From Haladaptatus salinisoli (GTDB lineage Archaea > Halobacteriota > Halobacteria > Halobacteriales > Haladaptataceae): DNA of 64,000 nt. The first letter of the stretch is position 1. Each line of letters opens with the position of its first letter. This document shows, one piece after another, positions 2,817 through 25,847 of this stretch. The notes beneath the pieces were generated by a model. It saw only the letters and a list, made by a program, of their open reading frames with translations. It did no database searches and was not told the DNA's origin. A program made the position numbers and the translations under genes. The stretch lies in contig NZ_CP085329.1 of assembly GCF_020614375.1 (NCBI RefSeq), forward strand, positions 434,001 through 498,000. The letters are read 5' to 3'.

Positions 2817-2829
2817 CGCAGCAAAGTAG

Positions 2830-2843
2830 ACACCGGCCGGTGT
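2830..2843. promoter_or_regulatory. 14-bp perfect palindrome at the promoter of the epimerase operon
   Basis: ACACCGGCCGGTGT is a perfect inverted repeat between the wecB stop (2852) and the epimerase start (2816), immediately downstream of a TATA-like taaataac. It could be an operator overlapping the transcription start or an intergenic hairpin. No T-run follows in either direction, so a simple terminator is less likely. Confidence 0.4.
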
Positions 2844-2851
2844 TATTTAGT

Positions 2852-3976: not shown

Positions 3977-4021
3977 TCCAATTTGAAACGCTACCTCCGA
4001 CCTCAAGAAGGCTACTGTTTT

Positions 4022-5209: not shown

Positions 5210-5298
5210 TCGTTCGAGTTGTTTCTCTCCCTGCGTATAACTCCTTGGTCGGGGCTCACGTTCATCCGGCGCTCCGGACACCGCCGTCCGGGGATAAG

Positions 5299-5305
5299 CA
5301 TTTAA
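5299..5305 (+). promoter_or_regulatory. TATA-like element for the sulfatase-fold gene
   Basis: catttaa/tttaac lies 25-31 nt upstream of the ATG at 5330 in the intergenic region between divergent genes. This is the spacing of a leaderless haloarchaeal transcript. There is no Shine-Dalgarno-like sequence just before the ATG. Confidence 0.45.
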
Positions 5306-5329
5306 CGAGCACCGAAGTATAAACACTCC

Positions 5330-6559: not shown

Positions 6560-6622
6560 CACGTATGACGACTACGCACCGTCTTCCCAGCGGACGCGTC
6601 GTAGTTCGTATCGAGGGGTATC

Positions 6623-8167: not shown

Positions 8168-8249
8168 GATACGTGTCCAGACGACCGTTCGAACGGCCGG
8201 ACGATTTAACTTACCATCCGCGGTTCTTCCACGGGGTGGATTCAGCAAG

Positions 8250-9992
8250 ATGAAACGCATCTTCTCCCTCTCGTTCGTCGTCTTCGCCGGGAGCGTGATC
8301 TACGCGAACGTCTCGGGGAACGTTTTCCCGACGCTACCCGTCGGATTCCTGCTGGCAGTCGGTCTACCGCTGGTCTCCCTGCTCTTTCGGGACTCGATGA
8401 ACGCCCGGACCGCGCTCGCGTACGTGGGCGGCATCGTCTTCCTCTCGGTTCTCTACCGCTGTCACGTCTTCCTGTTCCCCGCGAGCGTCGTCGGACACGA
8501 CCCGGGACTCTACGCCCAGCAGGTCGGACAGCTGATGGAAACGGGACGGCTCGGCAGCATTCAGGAGAGCGAGATCTCCTTTTACACGAAAGCGCCGTTG
8601 TTCCTCGTGTTGATCGGCGCGTTCGGGACGCTCGTACGGCTTCCGCCGGCGGAGGCGATGGTCATCTATCCGGTCGTCGTCGGCGTGTTCTACCCGCTCA
8701 TCGCGTTCGCGTTGGTTCGGTGCGTCGCCTCCGAAGAGGGGTGGCGACTCCCGTGTATCGCCGCGACGATCGCCGCAACCGCAACCCTTTCGCTTCGGTA
8801 CGGTTTCTGGCCGGTCGCACAGACGCTCGCGGTGATGTTGTGGCTGGTCTTCGTCGTCGTCGTCGTGCGCTACTACACCGATCGCGATCCTCGCTTCTTC
8901 CTGTTGCTCGCCCTGCTGCTGTTCGCGCTGATATTCACGCACAAGATCCCGGGCTTCGTCGTGGCGGGAACCTTCGTGACTCTGATAGCGTTCGACCGTC
9001 TCGTCCGCGACGGGGCGACCGAATCGATGGCGGAAAAGCTCCGTTCCCGATCCGTACGAACCCTCGCGGCGCTCGCAGCGGTCGCGGTTCTCGTTCAATG
9101 GGTGTTCGTCACCGATTACGCGTACCGAGTGGTGTTGCGCATGGCGCTGCTCGCGACGCCGCAGGCGCTCGCCGCCTTCGCGGAGCGGTTCACCAGTCTC
9201 TTCCTCGGAGGCGCGTCCGGAGGCTCGATGCAGTACGAGTGGGCGAATCCTCTGAATCCCCTGTTGTTATTCTTCCTGATGAACACGTACGCCATCGCCC
9301 TCATCCCGCTTGCGGGACTCGGCTGGCTCGTCTTGTTCCTGCGCCGGCGACGAGAGCCGAGCACTCGGGTGCTCCTCGCGGCCACCGCTTTTATCACCGC
9401 CATGATCGCGTTGGGCTATTTACGGCGGGCGGTCGCGAATCCGCGGCGGTTTACCTTCATCGGCGAGATCCTCCTCGTCGTTCTCGCTTCGGTCGCCGTC
9501 TATCGGTTGGTGCCGTCGGGGACCCGACTCCCCACCCGCCCGCTTCGCCTGCTCATCGTCGGGATGCTACTAACGGCGAATCTGTTCGCGATTCCGGCCT
9601 TCCCGGCCCATCCCGAGGCGCCGCGGAGCTACTTCGTGACGACCGAAATGGCGGGGAAGCGGTTCGTCGACGAACGCGTCGACGGAACGGTACACACGGA
9701 TTACGTGTTTGCCAACGCGCCCCCCGCGAACCCGGCTCTCGTCGGCCCGGAGGAGAAGTACAGTTCCCTCAGCGAAGAACTCCTGAACCGATCGAACGCC
9801 CTGTACCGCCACCAACACGTGTTGTTCCGGGAGACGGTCAGCGTTTACAGGACGCCGGGAGAGTCGTGGCGGCCGACGTGGCGTCCCGAACGGGGATTCG
9901 ACCGCGAGTACCACAGAACGTACGATAACGGCGACGTCGTCCTCTACTCTGCGACGCCGTCCAACGCCACGACGCGGACACGCGACCGCTAA
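8250..9992 (+). CDS. Polytopic GT-C-like membrane protein
   Basis: A 580-residue protein with about a dozen hydrophobic helices and a soluble C-terminal tail of about 110 residues. The first long extracellular loop holds VVGHDPGLYAQQVGQL (about residue 83), which resembles the D-P/D-x-D loop of GT-C glycosyltransferases (STT3, ArnT, mannosyltransferases), followed by ISFYTKAPLFLVLIG. This suggests transfer of a sugar from a polyprenyl-phosphate donor on the outer face, but no specific family was recognised and the activity is inferred. It sits between the flippase and a sulfatase-like gene. Its stop overlaps the stop of the convergent gene at 9989 by 4 nt. Confidence 0.65.
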   Translation: MKRIFSLSFVVFAGSVIYANVSGNVFPTLPVGFLLAVGLPLVSLLFRDSMNARTALAYVGGIVFLSVLYRCHVFLFPASVVGHDPGLYAQQVGQLMETGRLGSIQESEISFYTKAPLFLVLIGAFGTLVRLPPAEAMVIYPVVVGVFYPLIAFALVRCVASEEGWRLPCIAATIAATATLSLRYGFWPVAQTLAVMLWLVFVVVVVRYYTDRDPRFFLLLALLLFALIFTHKIPGFVVAGTFVTLIAFDRLVRDGATESMAEKLRSRSVRTLAALAAVAVLVQWVFVTDYAYRVVLRMALLATPQALAAFAERFTSLFLGGASGGSMQYEWANPLNPLLLFFLMNTYAIALIPLAGLGWLVLFLRRRREPSTRVLLAATAFITAMIALGYLRRAVANPRRFTFIGEILLVVLASVAVYRLVPSGTRLPTRPLRLLIVGMLLTANLFAIPAFPAHPEAPRSYFVTTEMAGKRFVDERVDGTVHTDYVFANAPPANPALVGPEEKYSSLSEELLNRSNALYRHQHVLFRETVSVYRTPGESWRPTWRPERGFDREYHRTYDNGDVVLYSATPSNATTRTRDR

Positions 9993-10894
9993 ACGCGATA
10001 TCCCAAGTTCTTGAGCCGCTCGTCTATCACGTCCTCATCGACCTCGCTTCGATCGTATCTCGGTTCCTCCGGGACGACGGTTTTTCGTTCCCCCGAATCG
10101 TGAACGTGCCACGGCACCTTCACCAACTTTCTCGTGTACGTGCCGAGGGGATGGCCGTACTCCCTGTACGGGAGCGGGAACGACCGCTCGGCTATCAGTT
10201 CGCCGTGATCGGCGGTGACGACCGTCTTCCCGCGAAGCGAGTCGAACAACGTTTTCATCTCGTCCATCACCTCGTCGAGATTCTCCCAATACGCCTTTCG
10301 GACGACCGCCGGCGGCACGTCCGCCTCCAGTATGGCCGTGAGCATGTTGGTTTTCGGCGAGATGTGTTGCCGGCCGACCGGCCCGATGTACGGGTAGTGA
10401 GGCTGGATGTAGTGGATCAGCAGACGCTTATTGGGGTACTCCTTTTCGGTTCGTATCGCAGCATCCGTCACGGTCTCGGGGAGTTCCACGCCGAGTTGCT
10501 CGTCCTGATACTCGCTCTGCTGGAGATTGACGAAGTCGTGGATTTCAGCGCCGATATCGTCGGCGAGGCGCGGAAACCAGGCGTTCGCGGAGACGTACAC
10601 CGTGTCGTGGAGCTTCGTCTCCCGGAAGTTCGCGGTGAGAAACTCGCGAGTCGAAGAGCCCTTCGAGTACCGCCAGTCGAGCGTCCCCGGGAGGTCGTAC
10701 CCCACGAAGTGATCGTACCGGCACGAGTCGAGAATGACGAGGTTGTCCCAGTCCTCCTCGAACACGTCGATTCCGTCGGGATTGTGTTCGCGTTTTCCGA
10801 ATCGCGTGTGGTACGCTCGGTTGATTTTCCGTCCGATGGCGTACTTGATCAACGCCGGCTCGTCGAGCGCTTTCGCTACTTTACCGAACATCAT
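9989..10894 (-). CDS. Sulfatase-like (alkaline phosphatase-superfamily) hydrolase or transferase
   Basis: The 301-residue protein resembles the sulfatase-like proteins common in haloarchaeal glycan clusters. An N-terminal metal-binding Asp lies in VILDSCRYDHFVGYD (near residue 55), followed by the putative nucleophile loop KGSSTREFLTANF (near 78) and the second metal site VVTADHGELIAER (near 228). It ends in DERLKNLGYRV, close to the end of the larger paralogue at 5330-6559 (QLRNLGYVETR). No signal peptide is visible. A TATA-like tatttag at 10917-10922 (minus strand) lies 23-28 nt before the ATG, suggesting its own leaderless promoter. Its substrate is unknown; sulfated or phosphorylated glycan is the natural guess. 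Confidence 0.72.
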   Translation of the reverse strand: MMFGKVAKALDEPALIKYAIGRKINRAYHTRFGKREHNPDGIDVFEEDWDNLVILDSCRYDHFVGYDLPGTLDWRYSKGSSTREFLTANFRETKLHDTVYVSANAWFPRLADDIGAEIHDFVNLQQSEYQDEQLGVELPETVTDAAIRTEKEYPNKRLLIHYIQPHYPYIGPVGRQHISPKTNMLTAILEADVPPAVVRKAYWENLDEVMDEMKTLFDSLRGKTVVTADHGELIAERSFPLPYREYGHPLGTYTRKLVKVPWHVHDSGERKTVVPEEPRYDRSEVDEDVIDERLKNLGYRV

Positions 10895-11018
10895 GGCCTA
10901 TGTCGCGTATCACCGCTAAATAGCTGATGGTGATTCGACCGCGACGCCGCGGCGAGTACCGCGTCGGAGTAGGCGAGTCGCTCGAGTATCCCTCGGTCAG
11001 CCGAACGCGTCACGAGGG

Positions 11019-12152
11019 TCATCTTCCTTCGTCGAGTACGGTGTCCGCGATTCGATGCGCCGCGTCTCCGTCGCCGAAGGGGTTCTCCCAATCCCCGGTC
11101 CGCCCTCGCGCTTCCTCGACCCTGCGTATCACGGCATCGGGGTCGGTTCCGGCGATGGTGTTCGCGCCGACTTCGACCGTCTCCGGCCGTTCCGTGTTCT
11201 CCCGCAGCGTTACGCAAGGGACGCCGATGATGCACGATTCCTCCTGTATACCGCCGCTGTCCGTGAGCGTTACGTCCGCGTTGGCCAGCAACTGCAGGAA
11301 ATCGAGGTAGCCGACCGGATCGATAAGGTGCAAGTCCGCAATCTCGCGAATGCGCTCCATCAACCCGAACTGTTCGAGGCGCTTTTCGGTGCGGGGATGT
11401 AGCGGATAGACGGCCGGAATCCCCACCTCGGACGTCACCCGGTCGAGGATTTCGACCAAGTCGGAAAGAACGGCCCGATCGTCGACGTTCTCCTCCCGGT
11501 GCGCGGTGAAGACCGCGTACTCCTTCCCCCCCAGCGAGAGGCGCTCCAGAATATCGCTCCGCTCTCGGGCGATTTCCATGTTCCGTTCGACCGCATCGAC
11601 GATCGTGTTCCCGGTGACGACTATCTCACCCTTGACGTTATCCTCGACGGCATTCGCTCGCGTCTGTTCGGTCGGAGCGAACAGATAATCGGAGATGTGG
11701 TCTATCATCACCCGGTTGTGCTCCTCCGGCATTCGCCAGTCGCCGCTTCGAAGCCCGGCTTCGACGTGTCCGAGGTCGAGTCGAAGTTTCCGAGCCGCCA
11801 GCGCTCCGGCGAGGTTGAAGTTGGCGTCGCCGCAGACGAGAACCGTCTGCGGCCGTTCCTCGAGCAGCACGGCTTCGATACCTTCGAGCATCGCCGCGGT
11901 CTGCTCGCCGTGGTACTCCGTCTCCTCGATGCCCTCGATTCTGTATTTCGGTTCGTCGAGTTGCAGATCCTCGAACATGCGACCGTCGAGTTCGTAGGAG
12001 TAGTGCTGCCCGGCGTGAATCGTGAACGACTCGATGTCTCTGTCGTTCAGCGCCGCGATTATCGGACTCATCTTGATGATTCCGGGACGGGTACCGACGA
12101 TCACGCACGTTTTATCCGGAACGGGTTCCGTCACTATCTTGGAATTATCCAT
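11019..12152 (-). CDS. wecB: UDP-N-acetylglucosamine 2-epimerase family protein, copy 2
   Basis: A second WecB-family protein of 377 residues, clearly diverged from the one at 2852-3976. Motifs: VGTRPGIIKMSPII, HAGQHYSYELD, VLVCGDANFNLAGAL, GHVEAGLRSGDWRMPEEHNRV, APTEQTRA, VTGNTIVDAVE, TAHREENVDD, YPLHPRTEK, TDSGGIQEESCIIGVPC. Two positions differ from the classical enzymes: Gly replaces the Glu of GTRPE, and Ala replaces the Thr of the GDT loop. It may be a 2-epimerase for another UDP-HexNAc (for example a 2,3-diacetamido sugar) or a weakly active paralogue. A TATA-like aaaaatatg (12177-12185, minus strand) stands 25-33 nt before the ATG. Confidence 0.8.
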   Translation of the reverse strand: MDNSKIVTEPVPDKTCVIVGTRPGIIKMSPIIAALNDRDIESFTIHAGQHYSYELDGRMFEDLQLDEPKYRIEGIEETEYHGEQTAAMLEGIEAVLLEERPQTVLVCGDANFNLAGALAARKLRLDLGHVEAGLRSGDWRMPEEHNRVMIDHISDYLFAPTEQTRANAVEDNVKGEIVVTGNTIVDAVERNMEIARERSDILERLSLGGKEYAVFTAHREENVDDRAVLSDLVEILDRVTSEVGIPAVYPLHPRTEKRLEQFGLMERIREIADLHLIDPVGYLDFLQLLANADVTLTDSGGIQEESCIIGVPCVTLRENTERPETVEVGANTIAGTDPDAVIRRVEEARGRTGDWENPFGDGDAAHRIADTVLDEGR

Positions 12153-12176
12153 ATACGGTGTTCGCGGGAAGGGGAC

Positions 12177-12185
12177 ATATTTTTT
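12177..12185 (-). promoter_or_regulatory. TATA-like element for the second wecB-like gene
   Basis: An A/T run reading aaaaaatatg on the minus strand lies 25-33 nt upstream of the ATG at 12152, with no ribosome-binding sequence. This fits a leaderless haloarchaeal promoter. Confidence 0.45.
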
Positions 12186-12245
12186 CCCCCGGCGAGGGTG
12201 CCGCGTCGACGAAACCCGGTAAGCGGCGGGGGCGCCGCGACGGAA

Positions 12246-13418
12246 TCACTCGGTTTCGAAGTCGCCCTGCGACGCGAGACATCGGTCGGTAGCGGCGATG
12301 AATCGGTCGTTGATACCGTTCCAGTCGTACCGCTCGACCGCCCGCGCGGCGTTCCGACCGATCTCGGCCCGTAAGTCCTCGTCCTCGGAAAGACGACGCA
12401 GCGCCTCGGAGAGCGCTTGGGCGTCGCTGGGTTCGACCAGGAGTCCCGTCACGTCGTGTTCCAGCACCTCGGTCGCACCCTCGAGCCTCGACGCGACGGT
12501 GGGCTTTCCGAGCGCCATGTACTCGAATAGCTTGATCGGGTAGATGTACCGCAGCACCTGCCGGCGGGGAAACGGGTACAGGCAAGCGTCGGAGCTCGCT
12601 ATCCTCGCGATGGTCTCCTCGTGACTGAGTCGTCCGACGAAGTCGACGTTCTCGGCGATATTCTTCCGCCGAGCGAACCGTCGTAGCCGCCGTTCGTCCT
12701 CGTCGGTCGCCGGTCCGATCATGGTGGCGGTCCACTGATCGTTCGCGGAGTCGAATTCGGAAAGCGCCTCGATTACGGTGTCGACCCCTCTGCTCGGCTG
12801 TACGTACCCGACGTACACGACGTTGAATCCGTCGCCGGTCTCCGTCCGCACGTCGTCGTACAGCGCCAGGTCGGTTCCGTTGGGCACGTTCACGACCTTC
12901 TTTCCTGGCAGTCCGTTGGTTTCGGCGAACTTCGAGTGAAGGGTGAGAACGATGAGATCGGCGCGAGCCATCGCGGGGAGCGCGACGACGTACACCGCCC
13001 GATAGAACATCAGGGCCGATTTTAAGACGATCCCTTCGCTTTCCTGTAAGAATTCTATCTTCAGACGGGGATGATCCCAGACGTCGAGAATCCACGTTTT
13101 CCCGCCGACGGAACAGACGAACCCCGCGAGGATGCAGACCAGGTGGTAGCTCGTGTGCACGGCGTCGACGTTAGCGTCGTCCGTAACGAGAATCCGGTAC
13201 ACGACCCAGAACGGAAACAGGAGGTGCGAGACGAGCGATTCGCCCGGACAGACGTGGACCGCCGACTCCGGTATCGATATCTCCTCGGGCACACCGCCGT
13301 CCGCTCGCGTGTAGAAAGCGCAGTCGTAGTTCTCGGACAAACTGCGCGCCCGCTGAAAACGGACCGAGTTTCGATTCGCCGAAACGTGAGTCTCCCAGAT
13401 AAGCGCGAGTCTCGCCAT
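12246..13418 (-). CDS. GT4-family glycosyltransferase
   Basis: A 390-residue GT-B glycosyltransferase. The N-terminal half has LALIWETHVSANRNSVRFQR, a VDAVHTSYHLV stretch and WILDVWDHPRLKIEF. The C-terminal half has VVNVPNGTDLALYDD, VYVGYVQPSRGVDTVIEAL, VDFVGRLSHEETIARIASSD, then KLFEYMALGKPTVASRLEGATEVLEHDVTG, which holds the conserved donor-binding Glu. Family GT4 is clear; donor and linkage are not. A TATA box (attatata, 13446-13453) lies 28-35 nt before the ATG, so it probably has its own leaderless transcript. Neighbours are the second WecB-like gene and the UDP-sulfoquinovose-synthase-like gene, all on the minus strand. Confidence 0.88.
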   Translation of the reverse strand: MARLALIWETHVSANRNSVRFQRARSLSENYDCAFYTRADGGVPEEISIPESAVHVCPGESLVSHLLFPFWVVYRILVTDDANVDAVHTSYHLVCILAGFVCSVGGKTWILDVWDHPRLKIEFLQESEGIVLKSALMFYRAVYVVALPAMARADLIVLTLHSKFAETNGLPGKKVVNVPNGTDLALYDDVRTETGDGFNVVYVGYVQPSRGVDTVIEALSEFDSANDQWTATMIGPATDEDERRLRRFARRKNIAENVDFVGRLSHEETIARIASSDACLYPFPRRQVLRYIYPIKLFEYMALGKPTVASRLEGATEVLEHDVTGLLVEPSDAQALSEALRRLSEDEDLRAEIGRNAARAVERYDWNGINDRFIAATDRCLASQGDFETE

Positions 13419-13598: not shown

Positions 13599-14801
13599 TC
13601 AGTCGGTGTGTTGAGCCACGGGGCGGCTCTCGGAGCGTTCGAGAACGTCCGGAAGGAATCGGTCTTCGTGTTCCGTGATCGTTTCCTCGTGACGTGTGAG
13701 CGTCGCGAGAATGTCCCTGACACCGTCCTCGAACGACTGCCGCTGTTCTCCGATGAGCGACGCGTACCGTTCATTTTCGATCCTCATTTTGTGCGTCTCG
13801 TCCTCGTCGCGCGGATTTTCGAAGTGTTCGACCGACACGTCGAGGTCGAACTCCTCGCCGACGTCCGCGATGGTTTCGGCGATTTCGATGATGCTGATGG
13901 CCCGCGTCACCTGATTGTACACGACGTACTCGTCCGAGGGGTCGTCGGAGTCGGCCAGTGCGAGTCGCGCCAACCCCTCGACGGCGTCTTCGAGGCTGAC
14001 GAACGGCTTGCGTTGTTTCCCTTTGCCGTACACCGTCACCGGGTAGCCCGCGGCCGCTTGGGCGCAAAAGCGGTGGGCGACCGTCCCGAAGTAGTAATCG
14101 AAGTCGAATCGCGTCTTCAGTTCGTCCGTGTTCCTGGTCTCCTCGGTCTCGGTGCCGTACACGATGGCCGTCCGGACGTCGCTAACCGAAAGCCCGAACT
14201 GGTCGTGCGCGAGGCGCATGTTAGCCGCATCGTGAGCTTTCGTGAGGTGATACCAGCTACCGGCCATCGCGGGGAACGGTACTTCGTCGCGGTGGCCGTC
14301 GTTTTCCATCGTCGCGCCGCCCTCGGGGATCGGAAATTCGGGTGCGCCGTACACGCCGGTCGTCGTGGTCTCCACGAAGTGCGTTCCGGTGAGACCGTTC
14401 TCCTCTAACCCCCACAGAAGATTGCGCGTCGCTTGGAGGTTGTTGTGCTGGGTGTAGTTCGCGCGCTCGCCGTTGATCTGCGAGTAGGGGGCCGACGGTT
14501 GGGCCGCCGTGTGGATGATGACGCGGGGTTCGTGAACGGCGAGGAGCTCGTCGACGAACGAGCGGTTCACGAGGTCGCCGTCGACGAATGAGAGGTTCGA
14601 CGCGTCTAGCTCGGATTTCGCCGCCTCGACCCGGTCGACGGGATCCTCGATCGGAACGCCGCTAACGCTTCCGACCTCCTCGACCCATCGCCGACGGCTT
14701 CCGTTGTCGACGATGACCACCCGCTCGTCCGTCCGCGTGGCGATGCGAAGGGAAGTAGGCCACCCCAGATACCCGTCGCCGCCCGTGACGAGGATGGTCA
14801 T
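13599..14801 (-). CDS. sqdB: UDP-sulfoquinovose synthase homologue (SQD1/SqdB family)
   Basis: This 400-residue extended SDR resembles SQD1/SqdB, which makes UDP-6-sulfo-quinovose from UDP-glucose and sulfite. Motifs: VTGGDGYLGWPTSLRIA at the start, VVIVDNGSRRRWVEEVGS, SFVDGDL, HTAAQPSAPYSQI, FVETTTTGVYGAPEF, then the active-site Tyr and Lys in GSWYHLTKAHDAAN. Further family marks are AIVYGTETEETRN, FDFDYYFGTVAHRFCAQAA and VTVYGKGKQRKPFVSLEDAV, then FENPRDEDETHKM near the C-terminus. The start is set by the ATGA overlap with the small gene at 14798-14947, giving a normal N-terminus (MTILVTGGDGYLGW); an upstream in-frame ATG would only add 27 residues read through that gene. It predicts a sulfonated sugar in the N-glycan. 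A plain epimerase is the alternative. Confidence 0.82.
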   Translation of the reverse strand: MTILVTGGDGYLGWPTSLRIATRTDERVVIVDNGSRRRWVEEVGSVSGVPIEDPVDRVEAAKSELDASNLSFVDGDLVNRSFVDELLAVHEPRVIIHTAAQPSAPYSQINGERANYTQHNNLQATRNLLWGLEENGLTGTHFVETTTTGVYGAPEFPIPEGGATMENDGHRDEVPFPAMAGSWYHLTKAHDAANMRLAHDQFGLSVSDVRTAIVYGTETEETRNTDELKTRFDFDYYFGTVAHRFCAQAAAGYPVTVYGKGKQRKPFVSLEDAVEGLARLALADSDDPSDEYVVYNQVTRAISIIEIAETIADVGEEFDLDVSVEHFENPRDEDETHKMRIENERYASLIGEQRQSFEDGVRDILATLTRHEETITEHEDRFLPDVLERSESRPVAQHTD

Positions 14802-14947
14802 AACTCCTCCTTCAACTTCTCGTTTTCTTTCTCGCACTCCCTGTTGTCGCTCAAGTGCTCCCAAATTTCGGTGCAGCCGCATCCGTCCGGCACTCCCTGT
14901 AAGTGCTGGACGTACTCTCGGCTACTCTCGTCAATTTCGTTTGACAT
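14798..14947 (-). CDS. Small Cys-rich protein coupled to the sqdB-like gene
   Basis: A 49-residue acidic protein. Its core DGCGCTEIWEHL with a later NREC gives three Cys and a His in 18 residues, a possible single metal site. The tail (CEKENEKLKEEL) is charged and predicted helical. Its stop codon overlaps the ATG of the downstream gene as ATGA, so translation of the sqdB-like gene is probably coupled to it. A purine-rich ggagatgaagg directly precedes the ATG. No function recognised. It could be a small zinc protein or partner of the sulfosugar synthase (inference). The start is the only ATG consistent with both the RBS-like sequence and the overlap. Confidence 0.6.
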   Translation of the reverse strand: MSNEIDESSREYVQHLQGVPDGCGCTEIWEHLSDNRECEKENEKLKEEL

Positions 14948-15169: not shown

Positions 15170-18118
15170 ATGGACGACGCTAGTAGGGCGGTAGAGGCTC
15201 TCGTCCGCGAAGACCCGGAGCGAACGGCCGCGCTGCGAGAGATACTGGCGATCGACGAACGACGGGACCGGTGGTCGCCCGAGGACGTGTCCGTCGACGC
15301 TGCGCTCTTCGAAGAACTCGTCTCCGAGGGGATCGTCGTTCGAAACGGCGACGGTGCGCGGGTGACCGACCGTGCGGCGATCCGCAGGGTAGTAGATAGA
15401 AACGACGCGCCGACCGGGGCGTCCGCGGATCGCCGGGTTCGGATGAGCGGTCGCGTCCTCGCTCTGTTCGCAATCGCCGGTGCGCTAGCGCTGGTCGTCG
15501 GCGTCCGCGTCGCGTTCATTCACCACATGGTGTTCAGGAACGGCGACGTGGTGTTGGCCGGAAACGATCCGTACTACTATCGGTACTGGGTCGAGCAGTT
15601 GACCGCCGGCCACTCGACGTTCGACGTCCGCGCTTTGGCTCACCTCCCTTCGTCCCTCGAAAACCACGACGTACTGACCGTCGTCACGATGTGGGCGGCC
15701 GCGAGCGCGGTCGGCGGAAGCCCGCAGTCCGTTGGAGAGGTGTTAGCCTGGTCCCCGGTAGTCGCGGCTCTGATTAGCGCGATCCTCGTGTACGCGTTGA
15801 CGATTGAGGTGACCGACACCCGCTGGGCGGGTGTCGCGGCGGTGGCGCTGCTCGCGATTACGCCGGTTCACGCGTTTCGAACCGCGTTGGGATTCGCCGA
15901 CCACCACGCGTTCGACTACGCGTGGCTCGCGCTCACCGTACTCTCGGTCGTCATCCTCGCGACCGAGAGCGCGAGCGAGGGGACGGACGCTCCCCGACTG
16001 ACGAGGTGGCGTCTCAGGGCGGCGACCGCCGCGTTGGGGATCGGCATCGCCGCACAGACGCTCGTTTGGCGCGGCGGACCGCTCCTTCTCCTTCCGATCG
16101 CACTCTACGCTCCCTTCAAGGCGGTCGTCGACGCTAGAGCAGGGCGGTCTCCGCTCGCCGAGAACCAGCGGCTGCTCGTGGGTCTCGGACTCGGCTCGGC
16201 GGGGGCGTGCATCGCGCACGTCGCCTTCGGCTGGCTTCCCGCGTTTCGCGCGTTTGCCCCGGCGCTGTTATTCGGTGCCGTCTTCGTTCTGTTCGCCGTG
16301 GCCGAGAGTTCCACCAGGCGGACGGTGTCCCGGCGAGTGTTAGCGGGCGCCGTCGGCGTCACGGTTCTCTCCGTTATCACCGTCGCGGTGCTGTTTTCCG
16401 ACCCGATCGCCGCGTTGTTCGGCCACATTCGTCAAACTCGCGGCGGCGGCGTCATGGAGTCAGCGCCGCTGGTCGGAGGTGGATACGCGTTCGTCCTCAG
16501 ACCGCTCTACGTGTTCGGGTTGCTGCTGTTCGTGGCGATACCGTACGTGGCGTGGGGAAGTTACGTCGCGATCCGCGAACGTCGACCGGCCTTGTTCGCG
16601 GTCTCCGTCTACGCGTGGTACTTCCTCTTCCTCGCGCTCGTTCAGGTTCGGTTCGCCGGGGAACTCTCGCTTTTCGTCGCTCTGTTCGCCGGAGCCGGCG
16701 TCGTTCACCTGGCGACGAAAGAGGCTCCGTTCCGTCGCCGAATCGAAACCGACCTCGGTTTCCGAGGACGAGCGACCCTTCGGTCGTCCCTTCCGACCAA
16801 GCGGACGGTGCTCGTGGTCCTGTCCGTGGTTCTGCTCGTCGGAAGCATCGGACTCTTCTTCTCGTTCGTGCAGACGACACAAATCGGCGTCCAAGCCGAT
16901 ACTCACGAGACGGCGACTCGCGTGGACGCGTACGCGGACCGGAACGACCTGACGTACCCCGACAACTACGTCTTCAGCGCTTGGTGGCGAAACCGCGTCT
17001 ACAACTACTTCGTAAACGGCGAGTCCAGATCGTACGGATTCGCGAGGTCGTACTTTCACGAGTTCGCCACCTCCACGGATCCGGACAGGTGGATCCGGAC
17101 GTTCGAACGAAAAAACCGAACCGGGTTCGTGGTAACTCACGACCGTTCCACCGCGCTCCCCGACGAGTCGATGCACTCGCGGTTGCACGAGCGCTTCGGA
17201 AGTCGCGGAAACGGAGTGGCCGGAGTGGGACACTACCGGGCCGTGTACGCGAGCGACGACGGATCGCAGAAGGCGTTCGAGATCGTTCGCGGAGCGACCG
17301 TCGTCGGCACCGCGCGGCCGGGCGAAACGGTGTCGGTGTCGAAGACGGTTCGCCTCGAGGGCGAGCAGTTCGTCTACAGGCGCACGGCTCGAGCGAACCC
17401 GTACGGCATCTACGCCCTGACGGTTCCGTACGCAGGCAACTACTCCGTCGACGGGCGGGTGGAAACGGTTCAGAAGGGAGCCGCGACCGCCGGTCGACGC
17501 GTGATGTGGCACGACCGGGACGGCCTCGTTCACTGGCCCTTCGATCGCGTGGACGGGGCCGATGTCTACGACCGAATCGGCGGCCACCGCGGTAACATCG
17601 ACGGTGCCGCATCGGTACGGAACGGCGTCTGTGGTCAGGCCTTGGCATTCGGCGGCCAGAAATCGTACGTGAAATCGAAGGTGGACGCGCCGCGTCGATT
17701 CACCCTCGACATGTGGGTCAACCCGGACGAATCGCGGGCGGGTTCCGGGCCCCAGCACCTCGTCAGCAGCGAGGCGGGTCGCCTGCTCACGTTGACGGGG
17801 AACGGTCGAGTGAGCTTCCGCGTGCCCGGCGTCGAAACGGAACCCCTCGTCGCCGGAAGCGTCCCTTCCGACCGCTGGACGCGCGTCACGGCGACCTACG
17901 ACGGAACGCACCGGACTATATACGTCAACGGGCGAAGCGTCGGCAGGGATAGAATCGGCGAGGGAACGGCGGAGTGGGGTGGTCGCCTCCGCATCGCGGG
18001 CGGGTACGCCGACGGTAACCGACGAACCTTCGAGGGCGCGATCGACGAGGTCCGCGTCTCCGACGGAGCAGTTCGTCCGAAAGCGATGGGACGATGTCCT
18101 CGTCCGACGGACGGATAG
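15170..18118 (+). CDS. aglB: AglB/STT3-type oligosaccharyltransferase with a LamG-like C-terminus
   Basis: A 982-residue STT3-family protein that should transfer the lipid-linked glycan to Asn on exported proteins. Residues 1-80 form a small winged-helix-like cytoplasmic domain seen in halophile AglB. Some 13 membrane helices follow from about residue 88. The first external loop holds GNDPYYYRYWVEQL (Asp near 131) and the next acidic motif is GFADHHAFDY (near 243), both expected for metal/donor binding. In the soluble domain the WWDYG signature is replaced by SAWWRNRVYNYF (near 604), so the Asp is gone. From about residue 770 there is a laminin-G/concanavalin-like domain (VHWPFDRVDGADVYD, FTLDMWVNPDE, WTRVTATYDGTHRTIYVNG, GAIDEVRVSDGAV). 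It is divergent from the sqdB-like operon. The glycan cluster around it supports the role. Confidence 0.82.
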   Translation: MDDASRAVEALVREDPERTAALREILAIDERRDRWSPEDVSVDAALFEELVSEGIVVRNGDGARVTDRAAIRRVVDRNDAPTGASADRRVRMSGRVLALFAIAGALALVVGVRVAFIHHMVFRNGDVVLAGNDPYYYRYWVEQLTAGHSTFDVRALAHLPSSLENHDVLTVVTMWAAASAVGGSPQSVGEVLAWSPVVAALISAILVYALTIEVTDTRWAGVAAVALLAITPVHAFRTALGFADHHAFDYAWLALTVLSVVILATESASEGTDAPRLTRWRLRAATAALGIGIAAQTLVWRGGPLLLLPIALYAPFKAVVDARAGRSPLAENQRLLVGLGLGSAGACIAHVAFGWLPAFRAFAPALLFGAVFVLFAVAESSTRRTVSRRVLAGAVGVTVLSVITVAVLFSDPIAALFGHIRQTRGGGVMESAPLVGGGYAFVLRPLYVFGLLLFVAIPYVAWGSYVAIRERRPALFAVSVYAWYFLFLALVQVRFAGELSLFVALFAGAGVVHLATKEAPFRRRIETDLGFRGRATLRSSLPTKRTVLVVLSVVLLVGSIGLFFSFVQTTQIGVQADTHETATRVDAYADRNDLTYPDNYVFSAWWRNRVYNYFVNGESRSYGFARSYFHEFATSTDPDRWIRTFERKNRTGFVVTHDRSTALPDESMHSRLHERFGSRGNGVAGVGHYRAVYASDDGSQKAFEIVRGATVVGTARPGETVSVSKTVRLEGEQFVYRRTARANPYGIYALTVPYAGNYSVDGRVETVQKGAATAGRRVMWHDRDGLVHWPFDRVDGADVYDRIGGHRGNIDGAASVRNGVCGQALAFGGQKSYVKSKVDAPRRFTLDMWVNPDESRAGSGPQHLVSSEAGRLLTLTGNGRVSFRVPGVETEPLVAGSVPSDRWTRVTATYDGTHRTIYVNGRSVGRDRIGEGTAEWGGRLRIAGGYADGNRRTFEGAIDEVRVSDGAVRPKAMGRCPRPTDG

Positions 18119-19705: not shown

Positions 19706-20602
19706 CTACGACTCTCGTTCGGTCGCTTCCGTCCAGTCGCAGGAGACGAGATAATCGAACCGGTCGTCGTCGGCCGGTAGCTGTTCGACCGTCACCGGCG
19801 CGTCGAGACCCTTCGCCATCCCGGTCGCAATGAACGACGCGACCGGGTGGTCGAAGCGAGTCACGGATCCGTACGCGCTTCCGCGAACTCCGACCGTGAC
19901 GGTCGTACCGCCTCGGTCTACGTCGGCGCTGGCGCTATCGACCAGTTCGAACCCCTCGACCACCGCATCGGTCAACTGTCCGGCGAGCGCCTCCGGTTCG
20001 TCCGGAACCGCGTTCGTCATGGTCGTCTCGAACTCCCGAAAGAGTGCGGCACCGGTCGGGAAAAAGGACGCCCCTCGCCCGCGTTCGTCGTTCGTCACGA
20101 CGAACGGCGAAATCAGCTCGTCGCCGTCGGGGACGACGTAATCGGCGTGCTGAGGGAGGAACAGTCGAACGTTGGCGAACGTTTCGTTCCCGTCGGATTC
20201 CGTCGGGACGTACACGCGCTCGTCTTGCAGTCCGAGGTCGTCGACGATACTGGCTCCCATCGCCGCCGCGGACGCGTAGACCCGTTCGCCGACCTCGGCC
20301 GAGACGAACTGCTGCGGCGTGAGATAGTACGTCAGGACGGCCGCGAAAAAGCCGGTTCCGGCCAACGCCAGTAAAAGCGGGCGCGAGTCCGGAAGGAGAA
20401 CGGCGGCGACGGCGGCCAGTCCGCCGAGCGCGGCCATTCCGAGCGCGGCCCTTCGATGTTGCGCCTGACGGGCGCGTACGTACTCGGCGCGCAGACGCTG
20501 ATTCTCCTCGGTCAGAAGTGCCACCTGCGCCGCGAGTTCGTCGGTCGAGCTTTGCGCGATCGATTCGTCGTCCGCCAGTTCGGCGGGTCGATCGCTACTC
20601 AT
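19706..20602 (-). CDS. Haloarchaeal membrane-anchored protein of the DUF58 locus, unknown function
   Basis: A 298-residue protein. The N-terminal 55 residues are acidic with a short coiled coil (ELAAQVALLTEENQRLRAEY). Two adjacent membrane helices follow (about 56-100: GMAALGGLAAVAAVLLPD and LLLALAGTGFFAAVLTYYL). The remaining 200 residues form a soluble alpha/beta domain with regular hydrophobic strands. No catalytic motif is visible. Its start overlaps the stop of the 158-aa membrane protein gene by 8 nt, and that gene abuts the DUF58 gene, so the three form one operon. Haloarchaeal DUF58 loci commonly include such a gene (family knowledge). A structural or assembly role at the envelope is only a guess. 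Confidence 0.7.
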   Translation of the reverse strand: MSSDRPAELADDESIAQSSTDELAAQVALLTEENQRLRAEYVRARQAQHRRAALGMAALGGLAAVAAVLLPDSRPLLLALAGTGFFAAVLTYYLTPQQFVSAEVGERVYASAAAMGASIVDDLGLQDERVYVPTESDGNETFANVRLFLPQHADYVVPDGDELISPFVVTNDERGRGASFFPTGAALFREFETTMTNAVPDEPEALAGQLTDAVVEGFELVDSASADVDRGGTTVTVGVRGSAYGSVTRFDHPVASFIATGMAKGLDAPVTVEQLPADDDRFDYLVSCDWTEATERES

Positions 20603-21071
20603 CGCTCATCCTCCCTTCGGATCCGAGCACGACGATGTCGTACCGGTGAATGCCGTACGCGAACAGCGCAGCGGTTCCGACGAGTACGAGGGCCGCGTGC
20701 CACGTGATTTCGCTCCATCGGTGGATTCCCCACACGAGCGCACCGAGCAGTAGGAAACAGCCGACGACGAGCCCCGTGAGCAGACGCCGGTGATCGAACC
20801 GAATCGCGGGTTCGATCAGTACGCCGAGGAGCCCCGCCTCGACGATCGCAAACGGGACGGCTCCGATTCCGTCCGGAAACAGCGCACCCAACACGACGTG
20901 TCCCAAGGCGAACGCGTACATCGGCGCCAGCACGTACCACGCGGCTAGAAGCGCCGCGCCCGCCGCCAGCCCCGACGAACCGTGAAACGCCGCGAGCGCC
21001 AGGGAGGCGGCAAACGCGCCGCCACCGCCGATGGTCGTCCGATGCCTGTCGGGTATGATTCGTCTTTTCAT
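20595..21071 (-). CDS. Small polytopic membrane protein of the DUF58 locus
   Basis: A 158-residue, almost wholly hydrophobic protein with about five helices (ALALAAFHGSSGLAAGAALLAA, ALGHVVLGALFPD, FAIVEAGLLGVLIEPAI, LLTGLVVGCFLLLGALVWGI, ALVLVGTAALFAYGIH). No enzymatic motif. It lies four bases from the DUF58 gene upstream and overlaps the next gene by 8 nt, so it is co-translated with both. Haloarchaeal DUF58 operons typically carry one such gene; function is unknown. Confidence 0.72.
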   Translation of the reverse strand: MKRRIIPDRHRTTIGGGGAFAASLALAAFHGSSGLAAGAALLAAWYVLAPMYAFALGHVVLGALFPDGIGAVPFAIVEAGLLGVLIEPAIRFDHRRLLTGLVVGCFLLLGALVWGIHRWSEITWHAALVLVGTAALFAYGIHRYDIVVLGSEGRMSDE

Positions 21072-21075
21072 GGTT

Positions 21076-22524
21076 TTACGTGGTCGTCGTACGCCTGCGG
21101 TGCGCTGCTGCCTCCAGCAGACGTTCGAGTTCGTCCCTCGGTCCCACCTCGAACGCCTGAACGCCGTTGAGTCCGGCGAGCTCCCGGCGGAACGATTCGA
21201 AGTTGACGTACCGATCGTAGATGTTTTCGACGTCGGCCACTCCGGTTTCCGCGAAGAGAACCGACGGTGTCAGGAACACGAGCACCGCGTCGTTACGTCG
21301 CCTCGCCAGCTTCACGGTCTCGCTCACTTCGCTTCTGTTCGTGTCGTCAGTTAGCAACACGGTGACGACCGTTCCGCGCAATCGCACGAGTTCGGTTCGA
21401 GTGACGTCGTACAGCGAATCCGTCTCGACTCGGCGACGGTACGACTCCGACTCGCCGAAAAAGGGTCGGAGTCGCGTTCCGAACGGGGAATCGTCCGCGC
21501 GGAGATGATCCATCGCGCGTTGCGCTCGGGCCGGCGACCGTCTCACCGGCGCCGGCGTCACCCCCGTCGCCGGTGAGACGGACGTATCGAGGCCGTACAG
21601 CCACCTCCGAACCGTCACGTAGTGACTCCTGTTGGCGCTCGGGGGGTGCTTGGCGGTGAGACCGCTTTCATCGACCGCGTACAAACCGAGCGGCTCCCCC
21701 TCCGAAAAGGCGTAGCTGACGAGCGATATCGCGACTTGGCGGGCGTAATCCAGCTTCGTTCTGCCTTCCGCGCCGGTGGCCATCGATTCGCCGTGGTCGA
21801 TGAGGATGGCCGTCCGCAGGTCGATTTGCGGCTCGAACTCGCGAACGTGGGGGTGAGCCAGTCGAGCCGTCGCCTTCCAGTCGATCCGTCTGAGCGAATC
21901 TCCGGGGACGTACTCCCGAATCTCCTCCGGGTCGATCCCGATTCCCCTCCCGCTCGTCTTGTATTCCCCGTACTCGCCCGCCACGCGCTCGCCGCCGATT
22001 CCGACGTGGATGTCTTCGGGCGCTCGTGCGTCGACCGTGATCGTCCGCGCCTCGCCGGCCGTGACCGCCGTCCGAAACAGGTTCGCGCGGTCGGTCAGCG
22101 TCACGGTCGGGGCGGCGAACTCGAAGGAACCCGCTACGGGCATCGTGACGGAGTACGTCGTCGTGGCGGCTCGATCGCCGGTCAGGATCGTCGCGCCGCG
22201 CTCCGTTGCGTCCGACCCCGCCGCGGCGACGGGCGGGTCCGCCTCCACGTCCAGTCGCACCGCCGCAGTATCCGGTAACTCGGCGGTGAGGCCGACACCG
22301 ACCTCCTCTCCGCGAGACACCGTTTCGCGCTCGAGCGACTGCGTCACGGAAAGGTTCTCCACGGTTTCTCGCGCGGTTCGGACGAACAAGTACTGCCGAG
22401 CCAACAGCCACGCAAAAATGCCCACCGCACCGCCTAGCAGTAGCGGTCTGGCGAGAACGACCGCTCCGCCCGTGAGGAAGACCCCGAGACCGATACCCGC
22501 CACGTAGTGACGCGTGAACTCCAT
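21076..22524 (-). CDS. DUF58-domain protein (von Willebrand-A-like)
   Basis: A 482-residue protein. Two N-terminal membrane helices (GIGLGVFLTGGAVVLARPLLLGG) are followed by a beta-rich segment (60-175) and the DUF58 core: GDSLRRIDWKATARLAHPHV near residue 210, then a vWA-like ILIDHGESMATGAEGRTKLDYA with a partial metal-site pattern (DxGxS) and VTVLLTDDTNRSE. DUF58 proteins usually pair with a MoxR AAA+ ATPase and help mature or assemble envelope proteins. No moxR gene or transglutaminase gene is present here. The start is divergent from the DUF4129-like gene, with about 130 nt between them. It heads a three-gene minus-strand operon. Confidence 0.85.
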   Translation of the reverse strand: MEFTRHYVAGIGLGVFLTGGAVVLARPLLLGGAVGIFAWLLARQYLFVRTARETVENLSVTQSLERETVSRGEEVGVGLTAELPDTAAVRLDVEADPPVAAAGSDATERGATILTGDRAATTTYSVTMPVAGSFEFAAPTVTLTDRANLFRTAVTAGEARTITVDARAPEDIHVGIGGERVAGEYGEYKTSGRGIGIDPEEIREYVPGDSLRRIDWKATARLAHPHVREFEPQIDLRTAILIDHGESMATGAEGRTKLDYARQVAISLVSYAFSEGEPLGLYAVDESGLTAKHPPSANRSHYVTVRRWLYGLDTSVSPATGVTPAPVRRSPARAQRAMDHLRADDSPFGTRLRPFFGESESYRRRVETDSLYDVTRTELVRLRGTVVTVLLTDDTNRSEVSETVKLARRRNDAVLVFLTPSVLFAETGVADVENIYDRYVNFESFRRELAGLNGVQAFEVGPRDELERLLEAAAHRRRTTTT

Positions 22525-22654
22525 CGGCCTCAGAGAGGATACCGCGGTAGTTCAAGGTACTGGTCGATTCGTTCGCGTAGGCTTTCCCTTCTCGGTCCGC
22601 GACCAAAAAGAGGTATTACCTAGTAACTTGTACCGTCTTTCGGGATCCAAGGTT

Positions 22655-24754
22655 ATGCGACACGGTGAAGTCGTACTCGTGCTCCTGTTGTTACTCTCGG
22701 GAGCGGGGACAGCGGCGGAAGATCCGACGGCGTCGGGTACCGAGCGGGGGATCATCTCGGAAGTCGACGGAGGTGAACTCTTCGTCGGAACCGGTGTCGG
22801 AAAGAGCGCCGCGAACAATTCGTCGGTTCTACGGCATAAAAACCCGGACAGCGCGGGCGAGAAGGGGTCGTCCGAGGACGTGGAGCGGTGGCTCGCCAAC
22901 CGGTTGTCCGGGCGACTCAACCAGAGCGTGGTTCAGATCAGTCAAGGGGATTACCAGCGCGCCAAGCGTCTCGTCGACAACGACTCCGAGTACTCCGAGA
23001 TGCTCGGAAAGTACGTCAACGTCTCCGAGGGGGCGAAGGAAGGGGAGTCCGGAAAGCAGTTCGAGCGATCCCAACGGAACCAACAGCAGTTCGTCGAAAA
23101 CGTGAGATCGTATCGAAAAACGCTAAAAAAGTACCAGAAAGCCAAGCGAAACGGGAACGAGCAGCGGGCGAACCAGCTCGCACGCGAACTGAACCGGTAT
23201 TCCGATCGGGTAAAACGAAACGGCGACGACCTCAAGCGGAATCTAAAGAACGTTTCGTCCAACCAGACGCAGTTCTCGAACACCACGCGAACCATCGACG
23301 AGATTTCGCAGAATATCACCCAGCGCCAAACTTCCATCGCTCAGCGGGAGTTCACGGGGACGAGACTGTCGAACCTGATCGTCCAAACGCCCGCTTCCTT
23401 CCGCAATCCGCTTACAATAACCGGGAAACTGACCGCGGCGAACGGATCCGCGCTGAGTAGTCGACCGATCACGCTCAGGATAGGGAACCGATCCATCCGG
23501 ACGAAGACCGACGGCGACGGGTGGTTCAACGCGAGCTATCGTCCGACTTCGCTGAAGGCGGGTTCCGCGCCGCGTACGATTAAGTACATTCCCCAGCCCA
23601 ATTCGGCCTATCTCGGGACGAACGCGACGGTGAACGTTACCATCAGACAAACCGAGCCGACGGTCGAGATCGAGGAAGCACCGAGGACCGGGCGTTACGA
23701 AGATAACCTCACCGTCACCGGGAACGTCACGGCGGCGAACGCGGGCGCATCGCAGGTGCCGGTGGTCGTAACCGTCGGCGGCGCGCCGATCGGAACCGCG
23801 CAAACGTCGTCGGACGGTTCGTTCACCGTCGAAGGTACGCTTCCGGCCAACGTATCCGCCGGCGAACGGCGCGTTCGGGCGCGTATCGCGCAGACGGGAC
23901 GAGCGATAGCGAGCGCGAAAACGTCGAAACCGATCACCGTCCGGCCGACCGCCACCGATATCTCGATAAACGCGACTCGGAACGGGAGTCTAATCCACGC
24001 GACGGGGGCGCTTACCACTACAACCGGCGCTCCGGCGGCCAACCAGACGATTCAACTCCGCGTGAGCGGGCGAACCGTCACGACCGTTCGAACGAACGAG
24101 ACGGGGCACTATTCGGTGGTAACCCCCCTCCCGAACGACACGGTCTCGGGCAGAGAGAGCGTCGAGGTCGCTGCCGTCTACGCCGAACCGACGACGAACC
24201 TCGAGTCTTCGACCGCACGAACTCGCATTCAACTCCCCGCGGAATCGACCGAGCTAGCCGACTGGCGACTCTGGCTCGCCGGCGTCGGCCTGCTCGGCCT
24301 CATCGTCGGCTGCGCGTACGCAATTCGGTCGCGGGAGCTGCTGGAGCGCGATTCGGACTCGGACGAGTCCATCGTCCCGGAGGACGGTATCGAAGAACCG
24401 GACTCGACCGAGGAGTCCGCCGAAGGCGAGGTCTCTCGCGAATTGATTCGGACGGCGCGCGAACAGCTAGCCGCCGGACGATCCAACGTCGCCGTTCAAA
24501 CGGCGTACGCGGCCGTTCGGCGGCACCTCGCGGTCGAGGGGGCGGACGACGGACGTACCGGGTTGACGCACTGGGAGATGTACCGCGCTTTCCAACTCGG
24601 CGACGGTGACGACGACAGCCTGAGCGCGTTACACGAGTTGACGCGAGCGTACGAGGTCGCAGCGTTCGCGTCGGCGTCTCTCTCACCCGATGACGCACGA
24701 ACTGCCGTCGATGCGGCGGCCGCTCTGGTTTCGGAGCCGACCGCGGACGAGTAG
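22655..24754 (+). CDS. Exported membrane-anchored protein with Ig-like repeats and DUF4129-like tail
   Basis: The 699-residue product starts with a signal peptide (MRHGEVVLVLLLLLSGAGTAA). The ATG at 22655 is chosen because this signal would otherwise be internal. A Gln/Asn-rich, probably helical region follows (about 50-210, RSYRKTLKKYQKAKRN), then three or four beta-sandwich repeats of about 85 residues (GTRLSNLIVQTPASFRNPL, VTGNVTAANAGASQVPVVV, ATGALTTTTGAPAANQTI), like the transthyretin/Ig-like carrier domains of surface proteins. One membrane helix (WLAGVGLLGLIVGCAYAI, near 540) leads to a cytoplasmic DUF4129-type domain (REQLAAGRSNVAVQTAYAAV, TGLTHWEMYRAF). DUF4129 often sits at the end of transglutaminase proteins in MoxR-DUF58 loci. 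Here it is fused to a non-enzymatic ectodomain. The DUF1616 gene follows on the same strand. Confidence 0.78.
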   Translation: MRHGEVVLVLLLLLSGAGTAAEDPTASGTERGIISEVDGGELFVGTGVGKSAANNSSVLRHKNPDSAGEKGSSEDVERWLANRLSGRLNQSVVQISQGDYQRAKRLVDNDSEYSEMLGKYVNVSEGAKEGESGKQFERSQRNQQQFVENVRSYRKTLKKYQKAKRNGNEQRANQLARELNRYSDRVKRNGDDLKRNLKNVSSNQTQFSNTTRTIDEISQNITQRQTSIAQREFTGTRLSNLIVQTPASFRNPLTITGKLTAANGSALSSRPITLRIGNRSIRTKTDGDGWFNASYRPTSLKAGSAPRTIKYIPQPNSAYLGTNATVNVTIRQTEPTVEIEEAPRTGRYEDNLTVTGNVTAANAGASQVPVVVTVGGAPIGTAQTSSDGSFTVEGTLPANVSAGERRVRARIAQTGRAIASAKTSKPITVRPTATDISINATRNGSLIHATGALTTTTGAPAANQTIQLRVSGRTVTTVRTNETGHYSVVTPLPNDTVSGRESVEVAAVYAEPTTNLESSTARTRIQLPAESTELADWRLWLAGVGLLGLIVGCAYAIRSRELLERDSDSDESIVPEDGIEEPDSTEESAEGEVSRELIRTAREQLAAGRSNVAVQTAYAAVRRHLAVEGADDGRTGLTHWEMYRAFQLGDGDDDSLSALHELTRAYEVAAFASASLSPDDARTAVDAAAALVSEPTADE

Positions 24755-24800
24755 CGAACCGGCTCAATACTTTTTACTATCACTATCGAAGTGCGAGCCG

Positions 24801-25847
24801 ATGGCCTTCGAAAGCGATCTGTGGTTGTTGATTCCTCGCTCGGTTCGTCGGTTCCCCGCCGATCTGGCCGCCGTCGTTTGCATCGTCGCGCTAACTTGCG
24901 GCTCCGTACTACTCCCGGGTCTCGAAGGAACGCCTCTTCGGATCGTTTTCGGTCTGTTTTTCGTGTCGTTCGCCCCCGGCTACGCGTGTATCGCGGCTTT
25001 GTTTCCGGAAGCGCGGGACGGTGGGGACGCCGAGTCTCGAACGGACGACGCCGGAGAGCGGAACACCGTTCTCCCGCGGCCCGGTCGCGGCATTGGCGGA
25101 TCGGAACGTCTCCTCCTTTCCATCGGGACGAGCATTACCGTCGTCCCGACGATCGCTCTCCTGTTGAACTTCACTCCCTGGAAGATTCGCCTCGTTCCGA
25201 TGCTCCTCGCGACCAGCGGTTTCACCCTGATCGCCGCCGGAATCGCTACGTATCGCCGGGAGAAGTTACCCGCGAACGAACGCTTTGCCGTTTCGTACGA
25301 GTACTGGGTGAACTTCGGACGAGAAAAGCTGCTCGAACCCGATTCTCGCGCGGAATTGGCGCTGAACGTCGCTCTCGTTCTGAGTCTGCTTCTCGCCGTG
25401 GGGAGCGTGACGTACCCCGCTACCGTTCAGGAGGGAAGCGACTCGTTCACGGAATTCTACCTCCTCTCCGAGGACGAAACCGGAGAGCTCGTTGCGGACG
25501 ACTACCCCTCGAAGTTCACGCGCGGCGAGAGCAAACCCCTGTACGTCGGCATCCGAAACCGCGAGCACCGAACCACGAACTACACCGTCGTCGTCCTGTT
25601 ACAGCGCGTTGAAACCGCGAACGGCACGGTGCGAGTGACCCAGTCCCGGGAACTCCACCGCTTTCATCCGTCGGTCAGGGCGAACGAGACGTGGCGGGTC
25701 AAACACGAGGTTACGCCGCGAATGACGGGTGAGCGGTTGCGGCTGCAGTATCTCCTCTACAAGGGCGACGCGCCGCCTCGGCCTGCGGCGGGGAACGCGT
25801 ACCGCGAGCTTCACCTCTGGGTGAACGTTTCGGCCTCTAACCGCTGA
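24801..25847 (+). CDS. DUF1616 membrane protein
   Basis: A 348-residue protein with four N-terminal membrane helices, among them DLAAVVCIVALTCGSVLLPG and RIVFGLFFVSFAPGYACIAAL, with the short FAPGY signature of DUF1616. A fifth helix (LALNVALVLSLLLAVGSVTYPA, near 185-207) precedes an exported beta-sandwich domain containing FTEFYLLSEDETGEL and repeated LYVGIRNREH/TVVVLLQRVE strands. The ATG at 24801 fits a TATA-like tttttacta 21-30 nt upstream and the first helix; the frame stays open upstream into the preceding gene. It follows the DUF4129-like gene by 46 nt. Archaeal DUF1616 proteins are linked to S-layer and glycosylation loci, but the activity is unknown. Confidence 0.82.
   Translation: MAFESDLWLLIPRSVRRFPADLAAVVCIVALTCGSVLLPGLEGTPLRIVFGLFFVSFAPGYACIAALFPEARDGGDAESRTDDAGERNTVLPRPGRGIGGSERLLLSIGTSITVVPTIALLLNFTPWKIRLVPMLLATSGFTLIAAGIATYRREKLPANERFAVSYEYWVNFGREKLLEPDSRAELALNVALVLSLLLAVGSVTYPATVQEGSDSFTEFYLLSEDETGELVADDYPSKFTRGESKPLYVGIRNREHRTTNYTVVVLLQRVETANGTVRVTQSRELHRFHPSVRANETWRVKHEVTPRMTGERLRLQYLLYKGDAPPRPAAGNAYRELHLWVNVSASNR

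Follow-up and report, generated by a model that had tools for sequence, protein, structure and literature searches.

A widespread haloarchaeal family of predicted oligosaccharyltransferases with a rebuilt acceptor motif

To our knowledge, the WWDYG motif is regarded as the universal mark of oligosaccharyltransferases (OSTs) and as the reason why N-glycosylation needs a Ser or Thr at the +2 position. A 64,000-nucleotide stretch of Haladaptatus salinisoli DNA (hereafter the window) contains a second OST-like protein gene without this motif, which raises the question of what such an enzyme transfers and how its acceptor is chosen. The gene (15170-18118, + strand; supported by ORF, Pfam, structure model and fold search) encodes 982 amino acids, with the ATG located 6 bases past an in-frame stop. 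A chance or mistranslated ORF was ruled out by a full-length homologue with 89% identity and by hundreds of further relatives. A 600 kb Haladaptatus halobius plasmid carries this closest relative, and the contig of the window (C3, 558,659 bases of a 5.0 Mb genome) is, judged together with it, probably a megaplasmid.

The protein had been described in the earlier note, made from the sequence alone, as a relative of STT3/AglB, and this kinship was borne out by structure prediction. Pfam matches were obtained to STT3 (residues 125-303, 3e-8) and to the peripheral domain AglB_L1 (residues 708-758, 17291-17443, + strand, 5e-9). The AlphaFold2 model, calculated with a 76-row alignment, reached a pLDDT of 89.8 and a pTM of 0.82. 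In a Foldseek search of the PDB with the whole model, Archaeoglobus fulgidus AglB (AfAglB) was the best match (E 1e-22 to 1e-20; for 7e9s E 1e-22, TM-score 0.61 by target, 906 columns), followed by eukaryotic STT3 and PglB, and a C-mannosyltransferase ranked far below the N-OSTs. For the core domain alone (pLDDT 95.5) only OSTs matched below E 0.03, with a TM-score of 0.71 by query against AfAglB. As modelled, the protein has the STT3/AglB/PglB fold of OSTs (GT66), with a multi-helix transmembrane GT-C region (residues 94-572, 15449-16885, + strand; delimited by the predicted secondary structure and by hhalign against canonical AglB) and a C-terminal core domain. Archaeal AglB (STT3, GT66; TIGR04154; 7E9S/5GMY) has in common with it the multi-span membrane region, the C-terminal core, AglB_L1, and the GND, DHH, TIXE glutamate and Q-x-R-F arginine positions; these four motifs align between the family and canonical AglB in hhalign (E 9e-35), in agreement with HMMER. 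Campylobacter PglB likewise shares the OST fold, with about 10-12% identity over the fold alignment, but it carries WWDYG and the MI motif and reads an extended sequon.

The name AglB, used in the earlier note, does not fit. Against TIGR04154 (AglB, archaeosortase-associated) the protein scores 145 bits, far under the cut-off of 450 bits, whereas the true AglB of the same genome, encoded on contig C1 in an agl-like cluster and carrying WWDYGHW, scores 940 bits. A canonical AglB elsewhere in the genome, doing all N-glycosylation, had been put forward as an argument against the reading of the note; of this, the existence of the gene was found. Since a canonical AglB is also present in 30 of 30 genomes of relatives, the window enzyme is, on these profile searches, best placed as a member of an accessory OST family.

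Relatives (E <= 1e-10) occur in just over half of the Halobacteriales genomes searched (207 of 392) and in 60 of 95 genera, including two of the nine genomes of the host genus. A profile of the core domain (A4) was searched in 345 genomes of the phylum: full-length matches (E <= 1e-53) occurred in Halobacteriales only, and what matched in other orders was the AglB_L1 region of their canonical AglBs alone (E >= 1e-16). As far as tested, the family thus appears restricted to Halobacteriales. Annotated relatives on plasmids are labelled by NCBI as 'STT3 domain-containing protein', 'LamG-like jellyroll fold domain-containing protein' or 'hypothetical protein', and no description of the family was found in the open-access literature. 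In Halorussus aquaticus (NZ_CP100400.1; loci L039 and L092), near-identical copies of the family gene and of a PF02397 gene are located at both chromosome ends, which suggests an untrimmed overlap in the 'complete' assembly; one of the copies is apparently frameshifted around the TIXE segment.

Residue conservation was counted over a selected set of 76 aligned family members. Invariant in all 76 are N132, D133, H245, R494, W605 and N612, and E430 and R609 are kept in 75 each. The DHH motif noted earlier was confirmed, together with the other metal-site and catalytic motifs: the first DXD-type motif G-N-D in EL1 (15560-15568, + strand) contains N132 and D133, the second, D-H-H (15899-15907, + strand), is a putative metal site, whose Asp is present in 70 of 76 and whose equivalent of AfAglB H163 in 65 of 76 members, the TIXE equivalent GVME in EL5 (16448-16459, + strand; located by hhalign and HMMER) contains E430, and R494 (16649-16651, + strand) aligns with the Arg of the AfAglB Q-x-R-F. 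In AfAglB, Asp47, Asp161 and His163 bind the metal, the TIXE glutamate Glu360 joins via a water, and this glutamate and the first DXD aspartate are proposed to twist the Asn amide (PMC8342417).

A different picture emerges at the acceptor motif. WWDYG is found in all 13 canonical AglBs and in none of the 76 family members, and no misplaced copy of it occurs anywhere in the 982-aa protein, the note having named a WWD at another place as an observation against its reading. The helix that bears WWDYG in OSTs opens here instead with WWRNRVYN (16982-17005, + strand), part of SAWWRNRVYNYF (residues 603-614), and the signature of the family is W-x-x-[NST]-R-x-Y-N. In the model, strand 600-602 leads into a helix beginning exactly at W605. 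The 'WWR' highlighted earlier is present in the window copy but is not a family trait: position 2 of the motif is usually Gly (49/76) and is Trp in just two sequences (2/76), those of the window and of its relative from H. halobius, and position 3 is variable (Arg in 30, Asp in 15 of 76 sequences). 'WWR' was therefore rejected as a functional change, being private to these two Haladaptatus sequences.

When the segments are aligned without gaps on the preceding V-x-S, W605 corresponds to the second Trp of WWDYG and position 606, which is Gly, Ser or Asp in the family and Trp in the window copy, to its Asp. The alignments to canonical AglB by hhalign and by profile did not extend into the W605-N612 segment and so did not fix the register, but both registers of WxxNR against WWDYG leave no conserved Asp. 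From motif order and predicted structure we infer that WxxNR is homologous to WWDYG, the alignment of the segment itself not being significant. The DK motif, searched as DXXKXXX[MI] after the following strand, was found in none of the 76 members, though the family may have a hydrophobic helix of the MI type. In AfAglB, WWDYG and the DK/MI motif build the Ser/Thr pocket (PMC8342417); the +2 Thr of a PglB acceptor bonds to W463-W464-D465, and mutants in the motif are inactive (PMC3527161). With catalysis-type residues kept, WWDYG absent and no DK motif recognised, the family would appear to have replaced the apparatus that reads the +2 position. On the sequence evidence, the changed sequon selection proposed in the earlier note is the most economical reading of the 982-aa protein.

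The PglB mutants also bear on three other readings. Because mutation of WWDYG abolishes PglB activity (PMC3527161), its loss in the family could mean a non-protein acceptor or a lost function. A degenerate OST homologue, inactive as a transferase and retained as a surface or assembly protein with LamG, would account for the loss of an essential motif and for a Natrialbaceae clade that in part also alters the metal ligands (EHR for DHH). It is very improbable, however, given the invariance of N132, D133, R494, W605 and N612 and the near-invariance of E430 and R609 over 76 divergent sequences, the tight linkage to glycan priming genes described below, and the absence of LamG from most members. 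An ordinary AglB paralogue for N-X-S/T, with a Ser/Thr pocket built from other residues and differing mainly in a diphosphate donor, would agree with the AglB-like fold including AglB_L1, with the retained catalytic residues and with the Haloferax volcanii AglB, which tolerates rare non-canonical sites, so that sequon reading is not absolute (PMC8241124). That all 76 members do without WWDYG, that no DK motif was found and that changes within WWDYG inactivate PglB (PMC3527161) make such a paralogue improbable.

The altered metal site belongs to a mostly Natrialbaceae sub-clade and concerns residues of the second DXD-type motif equivalent to AfAglB metal ligands: six sequences have E-H-R (L088, L091, L098, L099, L111 and L113), and D-H-Q/N/D is found in L082, L083, L084, L096 and L097.

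The C-terminal LamG-like domain claimed earlier was confirmed as Laminin_G_3/concanavalin-like (residues 835-969, 17672-18076, + strand; Pfam 8e-22). Family members are mostly about 800 aa long and lack it: it is present in 20 of the 76 selected members, and 10 changes were counted along the tree, of which starred branches force at least 8. LamG is an optional add-on that was repeatedly gained or lost, and it was rejected as a defining part of the family. The pairing of 'WWR' with LamG is consequently nothing special, as the motif is altered family-wide and LamG is optional.

The donor was approached via the gene neighbourhood. In the window, a sugar/glycan island (632-13418) contains genes for a UDP-sugar dehydrogenase, epimerases, two UDP-GlcNAc 2-epimerases, glycosyltransferases, a sulfatase-like protein and a Wzx-type flippase, and is closed by a divergent NAD-dependent epimerase/dehydratase gene (13599-14882, - strand; SqdB-like by eye). 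Between the flippase gene and a PglZ/phosphatase-like gene lies a gene (8250-9992) for a membrane protein of 580 aa with several spans and no Pfam match, which looks like a GT-C enzyme or a polymerase. The small phosphatase/PglZ-like family itself (window 9989-10894; L103:18500-19441) occurs in 11 of 80 relatives' loci, one relative giving a weak PglZ match. On the other side, a DUF58/DUF4129-like/DUF1616 cluster (19706-25847) adjoins the gene, with related genes near the family in 4-5 of 80 loci; the proteins glycosylated by AglB in Hfx. volcanii include one with DUF1616 and its neighbour HVO_2172 (PMC8241124). At 16 of 80 loci, a membrane-anchored DUF4330 protein is encoded close to the family gene (e.g., L107:4191-5351) and may be a partner or acceptor.

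The neighbour family met most often around 80 named relatives, in 40 loci, is represented by a 476-aa protein carrying PF02397, whose gene lies directly downstream on the same strand in 14 loci. PF02397 is the polyprenyl-phosphate hexose-1-phosphate transferase domain, and enzymes with it make polyprenyl-PP-sugars; this synthesis is established for bacterial WbaP/WcaJ, and UppP recycles the released carrier diphosphate. PF02397 is present in 197 of 207 family genomes versus 51 of 185 others (Fisher p 1e-48) and UppP/BacA in 174 of 207 versus 48 of 185 (p 1e-32), both as raw genome counts in which kinship is handled only by a few within-genus contrasts. Among 89 genomes in which both genes could be placed, the distance from PF02397 to the family gene is at most 25 kb in 59 and at most 50 kb in 69, against a chance expectation of about 1.6% per genome; for canonical AglB, 0 of 14 lie within 200 kb of PF02397. 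The PF02397 priming enzyme is not a neighbour of the window gene: the only PF02397 and UppP genes of this genome are located together at about 1.99 Mb of contig C1, where a Wzy_C protein is encoded alongside. As 51 of 392 genomes have PF02397 without a family gene, PF02397 also serves other pathways. Co-occurrence and clustering with PF02397 and co-occurrence with UppP tie the family to a dolichyl-diphosphate donor, implying, as far as gene content can indicate, that it would not use the monophosphate donors of euryarchaeal AglBs (PMC8342417). With the polyprenyl diphosphate glycan expected as its donor, the protein would resemble PglB.

The same neighbours (PF02397, UDP-sugar dehydrogenases, epimerases, flippase, sulfatase-like protein) are typical of exopolysaccharide and capsule sets, and the acidic sulfated exopolysaccharide clusters of Haloarcula hispanica contain glycosyltransferases, a polysaccharide biosynthesis protein and an arylsulfatase (PMC5467301, PMC9943897). 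The OST fold might therefore serve as a polysaccharide ligase or anchoring enzyme that moves or caps the exopolysaccharide made by a neighbouring PF02397/Wzx cluster. Its acceptor would then be a lipid, a sugar or a protein group other than Asn, such as a Ser/Thr hydroxyl; the motif of the Ser/Thr(+2) pocket is gone. A ligase of this kind is possible but somewhat unlikely, considering that the TIXE glutamate and the first DXD aspartate, the proposed twisters of the Asn amide (PMC8342417), are kept and that N-OSTs top the fold searches, with the C-mannosyltransferase far lower.

The family differs from archaeal AglB also by an extra N-terminal domain. Residues 1-79 (15170-15406, + strand; supported by a profile and by predicted secondary structure), predicted to be cytosolic, gave no Pfam match, and against PDB sequences just short spurious matches to designed proteins. 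Searched across the genome, a profile of this domain hits a single further protein, an EMC3/TMCO1-like insertase (L145:1495-2421; PF01956, E 5e-45), at its N-terminus, and hhalign confirmed the match (E 1.6e-10). This DUF106 insertase shares only the domain of about 80 residues, the remainder being unrelated. EMC3/TMCO1-type proteins act in membrane-protein insertion and TMCO1 in a ribosome-associated translocon (PMC7505659, PMC8887752). By this resemblance, the domain may be a translocon docking module with a role common to both proteins.

Taken together, we propose an accessory membrane OST that moves a diphosphate-linked surface glycan to protein, probably to Asn, without reading Ser/Thr at +2, a proposal to which we assign an even chance. 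A PF02397 enzyme would prime a glycan or polysaccharide on dolichyl diphosphate, a Wzx-type flippase would flip it, the OST paralogue would transfer it to a surface or secreted protein, and UppP would recycle the carrier. Of the possible acceptors, Asn is the likeliest, given that both acids proposed to activate its amide are retained, although this acceptor chemistry is read from sequence. The site would be picked without the Ser/Thr(+2) pocket of WWDYG and DK/MI, R609 and N612 might line a new acceptor pocket, the N-terminal domain might bring the enzyme to the translocon, next to the EMC3-like insertase, and LamG, where present, would probably bind glycan. In its most specific form, N-glycosylation of Asn outside N-X-S/T with a dolichyl-diphosphate-linked polysaccharide, at the translocon via the docking domain common to the EMC3-like insertase, the proposal is speculative and rather unlikely to hold as a whole.

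AglB-independent haloarchaeal OST activities match the properties expected of the family. In Hfx. volcanii, the low-salt glycan is attached to Asn-498 by an OST other than AglB (PMC3871713, PMC8241124), and in Halobacterium salinarum the repeating-unit glycan on Asn-2 has a dolichyl-PP donor and persists after replacement of Ser-4 (PMC2952790). Hfx. volcanii reportedly has one STT3 homologue, and the control panel gave no PF02397 or UppP match for it. The N-terminal sequence of the Hbt. salinarum S-layer protein found no counterpart in sets of 13 and 392 genomes. The family is put forward as a candidate enzyme type for such glycosylation and is not claimed as the solution for either species.

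The weight of the observation thus falls less on 'WWR' and LamG than on an OST family that is widespread among haloarchaea and has its acceptor motif rebuilt. The search for an AglB-independent haloarchaeal transferase goes back to 2013 or earlier, and glycosylation with a diphosphate donor and a relaxed sequon was reported for Halobacterium in 1998. Should the most specific form of the proposal be true, the family would supply a naturally occurring N-OST whose +2 pocket is entirely different, and this OST would be the first from the euryarchaea to be linked by genetics to a diphosphate donor. A large natural family in which the catalytic site is kept and WWDYG is rebuilt lets one ask directly how acceptor choice is encoded, and may be a new source of glycosylation enzymes.
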